A stretch of DNA of 64,000 bases, from contig NZ_JOGB01000027.1 of the NCBI RefSeq assembly GCF_000719335.1, positions 62,001 through 126,000 on the forward strand, given 5' to 3'. This document shows, piece after piece, positions 1 through 12,332 of this stretch. Under the pieces are notes generated by a model. That model was given only the letters and a program-made list of their open reading frames with translations, was not told the DNA's origin and ran no database searches. The DNA comes from Streptomyces sp. NRRL S-87 (GTDB lineage Bacteria; Actinomycetota; Actinomycetes; Streptomycetales; Streptomycetaceae). Numbering within the stretch: the stretch's first letter is position 1; the number at the start of each line of letters is the position of its first letter. The position numbers were made by a program, and so were the translations under genes.

Positions 1-517
1 TGACGAGGAAGGCCTTGAGGGAGGCGGACCGGGCGGCCTCGGTCTCCCAGTAGTGGCCGACCAGGAAGTACGAGCAGATGCCCATGACTTCCCAGCCCAC
101 CAGCAGCACCATCAGGTCGCCGGAGTAGACGACGAGCAGCATGGCGGAGGTGAAGAGGGAGACCAGGGCGGCGTACGACGGGTAGCGCGGGTCCTCGCGC
201 AGGTACGCGGTCGAGTACAGCTGGACGCAGGTGGCGACGACGCCGACGAGGACCGCGACGAGGGCGGCGAAGCCGTCCAGGTAGAGGGCCAGGTAGACGG
301 GGACCGAGCCGGTCGGGGTCAGTTCGGTCGCGGCGGTGACGGGCGGGCCGCCGCCCTGCTGCACCGCCACGACCACGGCGAGGACCGCCGCGGCGAGGGC
401 GGGGAGCACGGCGAGCGGCCGGACGAACCCGGGGGCCTTGCGGCCGAGGAGCAGTCCGCCGACCGCGCCCGCGAACGGGAGGGCCGGGACGAGGGCGGCG
501 AGGGTCGTGGTGGTCAC
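1..517 (-). CDS. nuoL: NADH-quinone oxidoreductase subunit L, second copy (5' part only)
   Basis: This is the N-terminal part (about 172 residues) of NuoL, the large antiporter-like membrane subunit of complex I that helps move protons; the rest lies beyond the left edge. The GTG start at 517 overlaps the nuoK stop as GTGA. The translation is strongly hydrophobic and carries NuoL-type segments such as [14 protein letters not shown] and [20 protein letters not shown], followed by an Ala-rich stretch leading to KAFLV. It is the last visible gene of the partial operon; nuoM and nuoN would be expected next but cannot be seen. Identification as NuoL rather than NuoM or NuoN rests on these motifs and on its place after nuoK. 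Confidence 0.9.
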
Positions 518-891
518 GCGGCGGCTCCGGTCGCGCTCTCCGCGCTGGCGGCGGGGGTCGGGGCGGGCCCGTCGGCGTCGGTCGGGCGCTCGGCGTTGTC
601 GCGCAGCCGGTCGATGTCGGCGGTGCCGCGGTTGCGGTACACCATCAGCACGATGGCCATGCCGATGCCGATCTCGGCCGCGGCGACGGCGATGGTGAAG
701 AGGGTCAGGGCCTGGCCCGCGTGCAGCTGGTCGCGCAGCCACACGTCGAAGGCGACCAGGTTGAGGTTGACGGCGTTGAGCATGAGCTCGACGGACATCA
801 GCACGAGGATGGCGTTGCGGCGGGCCAGTACGCCGTACAGGCCCGTGCAGAAGAGGAGCGCCGCGAGCACGGCGGGGTAGGCGAGGTGCAT
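514..891 (-). CDS. nuoK: NADH-quinone oxidoreductase subunit K, second copy
   Basis: Small membrane subunit of complex I (125 residues) with three predicted transmembrane segments. The two buried glutamates expected for proton transfer in this family are present at about E35 (SVELMLNA) and E73 (AAEIGIG). It has a hydrophilic Ala/Pro/Thr tail of about 25 residues that the other NuoK in this window (99 residues) lacks. The ATG at 891 overlaps the end of nuoJ and its stop overlaps the nuoL start, so translation is probably coupled along the operon. Confidence 0.95.
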
Positions 892-9301: not shown

Positions 9302-11257
9302 GTGACCAGCCAGGTCAGTAGCCCTGCCGAGCAGGCCGACGGCGCCGAGGAGGCCGTCGTCGGCGAACAGCGCACGCCCGCGGACGCCGCCGGCGCGAAG
9401 GGTGAGAAGGAAGTCCGCAGGCTCGACCGTGTGATCATCCGCTTCGCGGGTGACTCCGGTGACGGCATGCAGCTGACGGGTGACCGTTTCACCTCGGAGA
9501 CGGCGTCGTTCGGCAACGACCTCTCCACCCTGCCGAACTTCCCCGCCGAGATCCGTGCCCCCGCAGGCACCCTGCCGGGCGTCTCCTCGTTCCAGCTGCA
9601 CTTCGCCGACCACGACATCCTCACTCCGGGTGACGCGCCGAACGTGCTGGTGGCGATGAACCCGGCGGCCCTGAAGGCCAACATCGGGGACGTCCCGCGC
9701 GGCGCGGAGATCATCGTCAACACCGACGAGTTCACCAAGCGCCCGATGGCGAAGGTCGGCTACGAGACCTCGCCGCTGGAGGACGGCTCGCTCGACGGCT
9801 ACTCCGTGCACCCCGTACCGCTGACCACGCTCACGGTCGAGGCGCTGAAGGAGTTCGGCCTGTCCCGCAAGGAGGCCGAGCGCAGCAAGAACATGTTCGC
9901 GCTGGGCCTGCTGTCGTGGATGTACCACCGGCCGACCGAGGGCACCGAGGCGTTCCTGCGCCAGAAGTTCGCGAAGAAGCCCGACATCGCCGAGGCGAAC
10001 GTGGCCGCCTTCCGGGCCGGCTGGAACTTCGGCGAGACGACCGAGGACTTCGCCGTCTCCTACGAGGTCGCCCCCGCGACGAAGGCCTTCCCCGCGGGCA
10101 CCTACCGCAACATCTCGGGGAACCTGGCCCTGTCGTACGGCCTGATCGCGGCGGCCCGGCAGGCGGACCTGCCCCTCTACCTGGGCTCCTACCCGATCAC
10201 CCCGGCCTCCGACATCCTGCACGAGCTCTCGAAGCACAAGAACTTCGGCGTGCGCACGTTCCAGGCCGAGGACGAGATCGCCGGCATCGGCGCCGCCCTG
10301 GGCGCGGCCTTCGGCGGCGCGCTGGCCGTCACCACCACCTCCGGCCCGGGCGTGGCCCTGAAGTCGGAGACCATCGGCCTGGCGGTCTCCCTGGAGCTCC
10401 CCCTGCTGGTCGTGGACATCCAGCGCGGCGGCCCCTCGACCGGCCTGCCGACCAAGACCGAGCAGGCCGACCTGCTGCAGGCGATGTACGGGCGCAACGG
10501 CGAGGCCCCGGTGCCGATCGTCGCGCCGAAGACGCCGGCGGACTGCTTCGACGCCGCCCTGGACGCGGCCCGGATCGCGCTGACGTACCGCACTCCGGTG
10601 TTCCTGCTCTCGGACGGATACCTGGCCAACGGCTCCGAGCCGTGGCGGATCCCCGACCCCGACGAGCTGCCCGACCTGCGCACGCAGTTCGCCAGCGGCC
10701 CGAACCACACCCTGGCCGACGGCACCGAGGTCTTCTGGCCGTACAAGCGCGACCCGCAGACCCTGGCCCGCCCCTGGGCGGTGCCGGGCACGCCGGGGCT
10801 GGAGCACCGGATCGGCGGCATCGAGAAGCAGGACGGCACGGGGAACATCTCCTACGACCCGGCCAACCACGACTTCATGGTCCGCACCCGCCAGGCCAAG
10901 ACCGACGGCATCGAGGTCCCCGACCTGACCGTCGACGACCCGGACGGCGCCCGCACCCTCGTCCTCGGCTGGGGCTCCACCTACGGGCCGATCACCGCCG
11001 CCGTCCGCCGCCTGCGCCTGGCCGGCACCCCCATCGCGCAGGCCCACCTGCGCCACCTCAACCCCTTCCCGCGGAATCTGGGTGAGGTCCTGGAGCGTTA
11101 CGAGAAGGTAGTGGTGCCGGAGATGAACCTCGGGCAGCTCGCGATGCTGCTGCGCGCGAAGTACCTGGTCGACGCCCGGTCGTACAACCAGGTCAACGGC
11201 ATGCCCTTCAAGGCCGAGCAGCTCGCCAAGGCCCTCAAGGAGGCCACCAATGACTGA
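9302..11257 (+). CDS. korA: 2-oxoacid:ferredoxin oxidoreductase, fused gamma/alpha subunit
   Basis: Large subunit (651 residues) of a CoA-dependent 2-oxoacid:ferredoxin oxidoreductase, most likely 2-oxoglutarate. An N-terminal gamma-type domain (about 40-225, with FAGDSGDGMQLTGDRF) is fused to an alpha domain (from about 245, with LGSYPITPASDILHEL and the TTTSGPGVALKSE stretch). GTG at 9302 is set by AAGGAGG at 9286-9292; upstream in-frame codons have no such support. It overlaps korB by 8 bases. The enzyme oxidises the 2-oxoacid to acyl-CoA and CO2 while reducing ferredoxin. The close partial complex I is a candidate consumer of that ferredoxin. Substrate preference cannot be read from sequence alone. 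Confidence 0.93.
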   Translation: MTSQVSSPAEQADGAEEAVVGEQRTPADAAGAKGEKEVRRLDRVIIRFAGDSGDGMQLTGDRFTSETASFGNDLSTLPNFPAEIRAPAGTLPGVSSFQLHFADHDILTPGDAPNVLVAMNPAALKANIGDVPRGAEIIVNTDEFTKRPMAKVGYETSPLEDGSLDGYSVHPVPLTTLTVEALKEFGLSRKEAERSKNMFALGLLSWMYHRPTEGTEAFLRQKFAKKPDIAEANVAAFRAGWNFGETTEDFAVSYEVAPATKAFPAGTYRNISGNLALSYGLIAAARQADLPLYLGSYPITPASDILHELSKHKNFGVRTFQAEDEIAGIGAALGAAFGGALAVTTTSGPGVALKSETIGLAVSLELPLLVVDIQRGGPSTGLPTKTEQADLLQAMYGRNGEAPVPIVAPKTPADCFDAALDAARIALTYRTPVFLLSDGYLANGSEPWRIPDPDELPDLRTQFASGPNHTLADGTEVFWPYKRDPQTLARPWAVPGTPGLEHRIGGIEKQDGTGNISYDPANHDFMVRTRQAKTDGIEVPDLTVDDPDGARTLVLGWGSTYGPITAAVRRLRLAGTPIAQAHLRHLNPFPRNLGEVLERYEKVVVPEMNLGQLAMLLRAKYLVDARSYNQVNGMPFKAEQLAKALKEATND

Positions 11258-12332
11258 GACGACGGCTCGTACGGAACCGGCGCCCCGCTCCCTGCTCTCC
11301 CTCGTCCCGAAGGCCGACGGACCCCAGTCCGCGAAGGACTACAAGTCCGACCAGGAAGTGCGCTGGTGCCCGGGCTGCGGCGACTACGCGGTCCTCGCCG
11401 CCGTCCAGGGCTTCATGCCCGAGCTCGGCCTGGCGAAGGAGAACATCGTCTTCGTCTCGGGCATCGGCTGCTCCTCCCGTTTCCCGTACTACATGAACAC
11501 CTACGGGATGCACTCCATCCACGGCCGCGCCCCGGCCATCGCCACCGGTCTGGCCACCTCCCGCCGCGACCTGTCGGTCTGGGTCGTCACCGGTGACGGC
11601 GACGCCCTCTCCATCGGCGGCAACCACCTCATCCACGCGCTGCGCCGCAACGTCAACCTCAAGATCCTGCTCTTCAACAACCGGATCTACGGACTCACCA
11701 AGGGCCAGTACTCCCCCACCTCGGAGCTCGGCAAGATCACCAAGTCGACGCCGATGGGCTCTCTGGACGCCCCGTTCAACCCCGTCTCGCTGGCGCTCGG
11801 CGCCGAGGCGTCGTTCGTGGCCCGCACGGTCGACTCCGACCGCAAGCACCTCACCGAGGTGCTGCGCCAGGCGGCCGGGCACGACGGCACCGCGCTGGTG
11901 GAGATCTACCAGAACTGCAACATCTTCAACGACGGCGCCTTCGAGGTCCTCAAGGACAAGGACCAGGCCCAGGAGGCCGTGATCCGCCTGGAGCACGGGC
12001 AGCCGATCCGTTTCGGCACCGACCTGCGCAACGGCGTCGTCCGCGACCCCGCCACCGGCGACCTCAAGGTCGTCGAGGTCACGCCCGAGAACGAGGGCCG
12101 CATCCTGGTGCACGACGCCCACGCGGACTCGCCCACCACGGCCTTCGCGCTCTCCCGCCTGGCCGACCCCGACACGCTGCACCAGACGCCCATCGGCGTC
12201 TTCCGCAGCGTCGAGCGGCCGGTGTACGACACGCTCATGGCGGACCAGCTGGACGCGGCCGTCGAGCAGAGGGGCAAGGGCGACCTGTCCGCCCTGCTCG
12301 CCGGCAACGACACCTGGACGGTCGTCGGCTAG
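11250..12332 (+). CDS. korB: 2-oxoacid:ferredoxin oxidoreductase, beta subunit
   Basis: Beta subunit (360 residues) carrying thiamine diphosphate and one 4Fe-4S cluster. Likely cluster ligands are C40 and C43 (WCPGCGDY), C74 (GIGCSSR) and C223 (YQNCNIFND). The TPP/Mg motif is GDGD at 115-118 followed by the LFNNRIYGLTKGQ segment. No separate delta (2x4Fe-4S) subunit or ferredoxin gene is present in the operon, so an external ferredoxin is needed. The ATG at 11250 overlaps korA, and a strong hairpin follows at 12361. Confidence 0.94.
   Translation: MTETTARTEPAPRSLLSLVPKADGPQSAKDYKSDQEVRWCPGCGDYAVLAAVQGFMPELGLAKENIVFVSGIGCSSRFPYYMNTYGMHSIHGRAPAIATGLATSRRDLSVWVVTGDGDALSIGGNHLIHALRRNVNLKILLFNNRIYGLTKGQYSPTSELGKITKSTPMGSLDAPFNPVSLALGAEASFVARTVDSDRKHLTEVLRQAAGHDGTALVEIYQNCNIFNDGAFEVLKDKDQAQEAVIRLEHGQPIRFGTDLRNGVVRDPATGDLKVVEVTPENEGRILVHDAHADSPTTAFALSRLADPDTLHQTPIGVFRSVERPVYDTLMADQLDAAVEQRGKGDLSALLAGNDTWTVVG

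Follow-up and report, generated by a model that had tools for sequence, protein, structure and literature searches.

A probable 11-subunit complex I in Streptomyces with its NuoD subunit encoded in trans, and candidate derivatives without a membrane arm

The DNA considered here (the window, meaning the whole stretch of 64,000 nucleotides that was analysed) comprises bases 62001-126000 of contig 27 in the 8.15-Mb genome of Streptomyces sp. NRRL S-87, and it opens with a second cluster of genes for respiratory complex I, nuo2, distinct from the main nuo operon, nuo1. We consider it likely that nuo2, together with a NuoD encoded elsewhere in the genome (NuoD2), specifies an 11-subunit complex I free of the NADH module (N-module; NuoE, NuoF and NuoG), which would receive electrons from a low-potential carrier, probably ferredoxin, with KorAB as one likely source, would bind quinone in a pocket altered by a tryptophan, and would be methylated by an enzyme of the MidA/NDUFAF7 family. 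On the minus strand the genes run in the order nuoA2-B2-C2-H2-I2-J2-K2-L2-M2-N2, overlapping from nuoA2 to nuoL2, which bears out the first-pass annotation of this DNA in its description of tightly overlapping nuoA to nuoL with nuoH straight after nuoC; nuoM2 and nuoN2 were found where it had advised looking for them, to the left of base 1. It was also right that the locus has no NADH module: neither the cluster nor its flanks showed a nuoE, nuoF or nuoG. Its statement that there is no NuoD is true of the locus but wrong for the genome: a search with the Pfam family Complex1_49kDa found two nuoD genes, the second of which encodes a NuoD2 of 380 amino acids and stands alone on contig 19 (C19:145914-147053). 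The 11-subunit set of NuoA, B, C, D and H-N is thus complete, with ten subunits in the cluster and NuoD2 on contig 19.

Distant relatives throw light on this arrangement. They came from a phylum search of 246 genomes, while the class set held 196 genomes of the window's class. The context of nuoD2 was collected from distant genomes of the same phylum, 20 of them at up to 20 kb, six at 4 kb, and ten added last that were chosen for a gene of the methyltransferase family PF02636 near nuoD2 (12 further loci fetched). In 28 of these 36 genomes nuoD2 lies inside the nuo2 operon (27 clear cases and one at a contig end). All 20 genomes viewed at 20 kb have it between nuoC2 and nuoH2, which are direct neighbours in the window, and as far as the loci reach the order is A2-B2-C2-D2-H2-I2-J2-K2-L2-M2-N2, often near another nuo set. 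Four of the six 4-kb loci are also of the operon type, as are four of the last ten genomes, three with full operons and one (G021) showing only nuoC2 beside nuoD2 at the contig end. The eight lone copies belong to all seven f15 genomes fetched (G007 and G070 of the 4-kb loci among them) and to G006, with its contig of 7.7 kb, and each has a PF02636 gene within 8 kb; at the f15 loci (L245-L247 and L250-L253; 7/7 genomes) the distance is 0.9-8 kb. The lone nuoD2 of f15 and that of the class may go back to a single departure from the operon or to separate moves.

Within the class, a close NuoB2 was found in 50 of 196 genomes, and all 50 also have NuoD2, never within 20 kb of it: on the 14 shared contigs the two are 130-921 kb apart, and in the other 36 genomes they lie on different contigs. 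Three further metagenome-derived class genomes have NuoD2 without a full NuoB2 match. In a tree rooted on NuoD1, the NuoD of the main operon, and drawn without twelve long-branched reduced NuoD2, the operon-type NuoD2 branches first and the NuoD2 of the class forms one group (100/100). NuoD2 occurs in 80 class genomes, counted here and below among the matches listed; the 80 include G390, whose match near a contig start (G390:C201:781-1848), in a fragmented genome with no NuoI2, is probably contamination. Because the distant operons hold nuoD2 and NuoB2 of the class always comes with NuoD2, we read nuo2 as an 11-subunit complex I with its NuoD in trans. The assignment of NuoD2 to the peripheral arm of nuo2 is supported by inheritance and ancestral gene order, and the history of nuoD2, as reconstructed from these loci, accounts for the apparently missing NuoD of a widespread actinobacterial complex.

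NuoD2 differs from NuoD1 at the quinone site. We aligned 64 NuoD2 sequences, 37 of the full or operon type and 27 of a reduced form described below, with five NuoD1; G060, of whose NuoH2 only pieces were found, is labelled full in the residue counts and trees. The quinone tyrosine (Tyr108 in the bovine and Tyr87 in the Thermus enzyme, numbered as in PMC9120487) is tryptophan in 64/64 NuoD2 and tyrosine in 5/5 NuoD1. The histidine that contacts the quinone headgroup is kept in 37/37 full- and operon-type NuoD2. Yarrowia mutants Y144F, Y144W and Y144H are cited in PMC9120487 as having considerable activity left with Q1 and Q2. We read the exchange of tyrosine for tryptophan as pointing to altered quinone chemistry or to a different partner; no description of a tryptophan at this position of NuoD2 was found in our literature searches.

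The claim of the first-pass annotation that the complex works without NuoEFG as its input gains support from genomes in which this input is missing. We looked for the NuoF domain (PF10589) in 17 genomes and found it in 11. Five genomes carry nuo2 without it, namely G332 (100% complete) and G100, G120, G159 and G199 (94-97%); G171, also negative, was left out of this count. In G332 there is a single NuoB match and a single NuoD match, both of the nuo2 type. These genomes speak against an obligatory loan of NuoEFG, and an N-module-free complex I with an input other than NuoEFG is probable; the window's own genome does have NuoF. Since the set contains no NuoEFG, it does not belong with the 14-subunit NADH:quinone oxidoreductases. 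A ferredoxin input to nuo2 is plausible. An energy-converting [NiFe] hydrogenase was considered and rejected: the large subunit of such an enzyme has two CxxC metal-ligand pairs, whereas NuoD2 has no CxxC and its match to NiFeSe_Hases stays below cut-off.

Divergently from nuo2 lie korA and korB, for the alpha and beta subunits of a 2-oxoacid:acceptor oxidoreductase. Of the 50 class genomes, 37 have KorA no more than 12 kb from NuoB2 (17/19 in the window's genus); of the other 13, ten have it on another contig (including G346, where the start of korA is at a contig end), two far away, and one not at all. A survey of co-occurrence, which the first-pass annotation had proposed, thus confirmed adjacency in the class but gave separation in the distant genomes: KorA is present in 26 of 32, in 22 on another contig than nuoD2 and in four over 1 Mb from it. 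Regular separation of the operon from korAB, named in advance as evidence against the link, is therefore what is seen outside the class. The adjacency could well be a by-product, without functional link, of an old nuo1-korAB-nuo2 block, a reading to which we give somewhat less than an even chance. It agrees with the 50 NuoD2-lacking genomes that had listed positions for both KorA and the main nuoH, where the two share a contig in 39 and lie at most 25 kb apart in 34 of these, with the 26 distant genomes in which KorA is never near nuoD2, and with G060 and G082, in which KorA stays with nuo1. It fits less well with five f75 genomes that have KorA 1.4-4.3 kb from nuoB2 and the main nuoB 69-128 kb away, and with the 16 of 28 genomes without a second NuoH in which no more than 8 kb separate KorA from the residual nuo2 genes. 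No KorA was found in the five NuoF-less genomes. With KorA absent there, and usually adjoining the main nuo genes where nuo2 is absent, the dedicated feed from 2-oxoglutarate oxidation through KorAB is not supported in the form proposed, and we rejected KorAB as a universal partner. In Streptomyces it may feed nuo2; it is not the defining partner of nuo2. G394 has short korB and korA remnants (L150:11644-11996) in the space that separates the main nuoN from nuoB2-C2-I2. SCO4594 and SCO4595 are listed as 2-oxoglutarate-oxidising proteins in PMC8981147, the available part of which makes no mention of nuo2.

The commonest neighbour of nuoD2 in a flank comparison, at 12 of 20 loci, was a gene of the Methyltransf_28 family (PF02636; METHYLTRANSFERASE), and in the window's genome such a gene lies 5.4 kb from nuoD2. 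In the class, 71 of the 196 genomes have PF02636, which was found in 70 of the 80 genomes with NuoD2 and in 1 of the 116 without; the two genes share a contig in 67 of the 70, and in all 67 they are within 12 kb of each other. Genomes outside the class show a weaker association (45 with both, 28 with NuoD2 only, 11 with PF02636 only, 137 with neither), and 23 of 26 same-contig pairs are within 12 kb. At L255 and L256 the PF02636 gene is the next one after nuoN2, with the same orientation, so that a link to nuo2 is seen also where nuoD2 has not moved. The match to Methyltransf_28 is above cut-off, a glycine-rich S-adenosylmethionine motif is present in the genus loci with a match, and one PF02636 protein compared with solved structures found only the COG1565/DUF185 entries 4f3n/4g67 and 1zkd. 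The human assembly factor NDUFAF7 is, we presume, a member of the same family. At the position of human NDUFS2 Arg85, 64/64 aligned NuoD2 have arginine and 5/5 NuoD1 have threonine. NDUFAF7 dimethylates this arginine in humans (PMC3829151), and the same residue is dimethylated in Paracoccus but not in E. coli (PMC8042128), which was not among the PF02636-positive control genomes; Thermus also has threonine there (PMC3750175, PMC8042128). The title of a paper cited in PMC12455994 gives methylation of the NDUFAF7 type a proteobacterial origin. From the co-occurrence, the linkage and the residue we infer that the NuoD2 arginine is probably dimethylated by the nearby MidA-family enzyme. Our literature search found no report of a MidA-NuoD pairing in bacteria, and the pair is new as far as such searches go. 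We think it unlikely that the enzyme has a different substrate, be it DNA or some other protein, or that its gene is a neighbour by inheritance alone. Wolbachia MidA did methylate DNA when expressed in E. coli (PMC12455994), and nuoD2 has further recurrent neighbours, at up to 9 of 20 loci, that look unrelated (genes for transport and for folate, pantothenate and NAD); on the other side stand the strong co-occurrence with NuoD2, the linkage that extends outside the class, and the action of the human and Dictyostelium homologues on NDUFS2 (PMC9006661).

Another way to read nuo2 is that its products swap into the main 14-subunit complex, for example as NuoL2 and NuoM2, or borrow the NuoD and NuoEFG of that complex. 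Swapping has been proposed in print for Streptomyces from antisense RNA data (PMC3765725, PMC8388888), and most class genomes with nuo2 do have nuo1-type NuoB and NuoD matches as well. We hold it to be quite improbable in view of the NuoD2 present in 50/50 genomes with NuoB2, the five nuo2 genomes that do without a NuoF domain, G332 with its one NuoB and one NuoD match, and the Arg/Thr and Trp/Tyr differences that separate NuoD2 from NuoD1 in every aligned sequence (64 and 5). That nuo2 is an Fpo-like F420H2 dehydrogenase lacking only an FpoF-type flavoprotein is very improbable: matches to Fpo models were obtained for NuoH2 and NuoK2, though below cut-off, and an FrhB_FdhB_C protein occurs in four of the five NuoF-less, KorA-less genomes, but this protein was found in only 6 of 13 genomes tested, always on another contig than nuoD2, and the window's genome is not among them. 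The genomes without it are the window's, G023, G332, G292, G254, G055 and G067. With PF04432, the family of the FpoF-type subunit, absent from the window's genome (G000), an Fpo-type F420 input was rejected there; in the four with FrhB_FdhB_C (G100, G120, G159 and G199) an F420-linked donor is possible.

In the mechanism that we propose for the N-module-free complex, the cluster would supply ten of the eleven subunits, and NuoD2 would join NuoB2, NuoC2 and NuoI2 to form the peripheral arm. Electrons would enter at the two clusters of NuoI2 from a low-potential carrier, probably ferredoxin, for which KorAB would be one likely electron source in Streptomyces-type genomes. By homology they would then pass to cluster N2 in NuoB2 and on to menaquinone in the tryptophan-altered pocket, driving proton pumping, and the MidA/NDUFAF7-family enzyme would methylate the NuoD2 arginine before or during assembly.

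Several points weigh against this reading. A common donor of 11-subunit complexes has been sought and none found (PMC11238625), and since the five NuoF-less nuo2 genomes have no KorA, KorAB cannot be the general donor. The replacement of tyrosine by tryptophan may mean that the quinone chemistry is poor or altered. As regards methylation, the recurrence of other nuoD2 neighbours means that the PF02636 linkage may be partly inherited gene order; the Fisher p of 6e-41 for co-occurrence of PF02636 and NuoD2 ignores relatedness and takes the NuoD2 genomes from among the matches listed; ten of the 80 NuoD2 genomes have no PF02636 above threshold; and the class proteins have low scores of about 21-81 bits, compared with as many as 205 bits for proteins from elsewhere. 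One of the ten, G332, has a divergent PF02636 homologue 2 kb from nuoD2.

A reduced form of nuo2 was found in 28 of the 196 class genomes, under 13 family codes, which have NuoI2 and NuoD2 but no second NuoH. A second NuoH was taken as absent where the best NuoH match had main-operon strength, with NuoH sought genome-wide and the other membrane subunits in the fetched loci; G247, with a reduced NuoI2 and no NuoD2, was not counted. The fetched reduced loci have nuoB2-C2-I2 in order, several followed by an HtpX-like gene as after nuoN2 of the window, a layout that in situ loss of A, H and J-N would produce. Most of the 28 have a MidA-family gene; KorA is at most 8 kb away in 16, sits on a different contig in five, and is absent or weak in seven. 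The iron-sulphur ligands are retained: the nine NuoI2 cysteines, including an extra one in the motif CPDWC, are kept in 25/25 reduced rows, and of 26 aligned NuoB2 rows at least 24 have the N2 cysteines, where the misses come from an unrecovered frame and an alignment failure. Set aside were G403 (wrong NuoB/NuoI match), the NuoI2 of G257 (other contig) and the NuoB2 of G283 (frame not recovered), and in G264 the first cysteine pair did not align in the ligand-column check. Purifying selection is indicated in close pairs by ratios of non-synonymous to synonymous substitution rates (dN/dS) of 0.07-0.50 for reduced B, C, I and D (16 measurable comparisons; dS was unmeasurable in three others); a dN/dS of 4.3 for KorA of G290/G300 was discarded as an artefact. 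The membrane-interface helix of NuoI2, present in 38/38 full or operon rows, is by eye found in 0/25 reduced rows (in G362 the stretch is replaced), and the residue equivalent to bovine Asp160 is acidic in 9/27 reduced NuoD2 as against glutamate in 34/37 others and 5/5 NuoD1. The headgroup histidine is lost in 4/27 reduced NuoD2, and the tryptophan and arginine are kept in 27/27.

According to the tree, the reduced state was reached two or more times, once inside a single genus code, g181, that has a full-type genome as well. To judge from its gene content, an intermediate seems to be preserved in the closed genome G060: A2, B2, C2 and I2 are kept, NuoH2 consists of two short pieces (L108:6513-8857), and no J2-N2 was found within the 20 kb seen. 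A scan of contigs gave 591 confirmed loci, and among the best 80 of these NuoH2 was found in 76; at L169, L182 and L185 the downstream side carries J2-L2, whereas the 3.9 kb visible on the upstream side contain no NuoH2, and in L176 (Sphaerisporangium rufum) NuoI2 is followed by HtpX 0.4 kb on. Because the NuoI2 helix is lost and the quinone acid has decayed, we tentatively propose, at a little under even odds, that NuoB2-C2-I2-D2 forms, in 28 or more of the 196 class genomes, a soluble electron-transfer enzyme that arose at least twice and might carry electrons from 2-oxoglutarate. The reduced arm may instead dock on the membrane arm of the main complex. A literature search found nothing of this kind, and such membrane-arm-less derivatives are new as far as searches go.

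The individual genes of the window's nuo2 cluster, all on the minus strand, are nuoA2 (5032..5439; Oxidored_q4, E 3.5e-31), nuoB2 (4361..5041; Oxidored_q6, start read from the translation), nuoC2 (3105..4364; Complex1_30kDa, E 8e-32), nuoH2 (2149..3108; NADHdh, E 1e-99), nuoI2 (1502..2149; Fer4 families), nuoJ2 (891..1505; Oxidored_q3, E 3.5e-36, start read by eye), nuoK2 (514..891; Oxidored_q2, E 4.5e-28) and the 5' part of nuoL2 (1..517); the remainder of nuoL2 lies beyond the left edge of the window and is succeeded there by nuoM2 and nuoN2 (C27:57394-62517). As the first-pass annotation had noted, all iron-sulphur ligands are there: a check by ligand columns found the N6a, N6b and N2 ligands intact, with four N2 cysteines in NuoB2 and two complete 4Fe-4S motifs in NuoI2. 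NuoI2 also has an N-terminal membrane-interface helix and, after its first 4Fe-4S motif, the extra cysteine (CPDWC), seen in 63/63 sequences checked; it matches PorD/KorD models, below cut-off. The 30-kDa domain of NuoC2 (residues 31-151) is followed by a long C-terminal tail rich in Ala, Pro and Glu (window 3105-3915), and low-complexity tails also terminate NuoI2, NuoJ2 and NuoK2. The ferredoxin gene for which a search left of base 1 had been advised did not turn up as the next gene: the one called after nuoN2 encodes an HtpX-like M48 peptidase (L004:8377-9240). Such a gene lies 3' of nuo2 or of reduced nuoB2-C2-I2 in many loci (L004, L090, L096, L103, L104, L110, L140, L143, L145, L162 and L176). 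The operon is broken by several kb without nuo matches in L109 (G192; B2 to C2 and H2 to I2) and L111 (G360; A2 to B2).

On the plus strand follow sensor kinase 1 (5569..6759; Sensor, HisKA_3 and HATPase_c), sensor kinase 2 of the same architecture (6815..8239), a LuxR-type response regulator (8395..9129), korA (9209..11257; TIGR03710 above cut-off, POR and POR_N domains in one chain) and korB (11250..12332; TPP_enzyme_C, with TIGR02177 PorB_KorB just below cut-off), which agrees with the divergent two kinases, regulator and korAB already described for this DNA. The control by the adjacent regulator that had been proposed along with them is not general: the kinase and regulator block is present in the window, L106, L115 and L116 and missing from L105 of the same genus, and loci of other families have only weak regulator-like matches, one of which (34%, G249) lies in the same place. 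Kinase and regulator control was thus rejected as a general property, and the two kinases and regulator look, from their distribution, like an addition within the genus. About 13 kb past korB lies nuo1 (about 25,062-40,990, minus strand; limits from BLAST matches), with NuoF, NuoG and NuoD1 (37,986-39,305, minus strand).

An 11-subunit complex with NuoD in trans is largely known for Streptomyces, and what we add is evidence for the reason behind the apparent lack of NuoD. All or most of nuoA2, B2, D2 and H2-N2, with nuoD2 at a separate place, are described by Moody et al. 2013 (PMC3765725) and in a 2021 study of S. ambofaciens (PMC8388888), and the former notes the cluster without N-module genes. 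The genes are the same as ours; these papers propose swapping of NuoL2/NuoM2, and in their available parts mention no ancestral operon, methyltransferase link or membrane-arm-less form. Like other 11-subunit complexes I, nuo2 has no NADH module and counts ferredoxin among its candidate donors; it differs in having NuoD in trans near a MidA-family gene and tryptophan at the quinone tyrosine. The KorAB of Mycobacterium tuberculosis is a two-subunit form. It, too, is a 2-oxoglutarate ferredoxin oxidoreductase (PMC2773412). With mitochondrial NDUFS2 and NDUFAF7 (PMC3829151, PMC8042128), NuoD2 shares the arginine of the HRG motif next to N2, whereas the actinobacterial genes are linked in the genome, the enzyme is a distant family member, and methylation is here a prediction.

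The pairing of nuoD2 with a MidA-family gene would offer a bacterial genetic handle on arginine methylation of the NDUFAF7 type. The reduced forms are natural experiments in which the membrane arm has seemingly been removed and the electron wire kept, and they would allow the peripheral arm to be tested alone. If the reading of the reduced form is true, the peripheral arm of complex I has turned into a free-standing enzyme that may pass electrons to a soluble acceptor.

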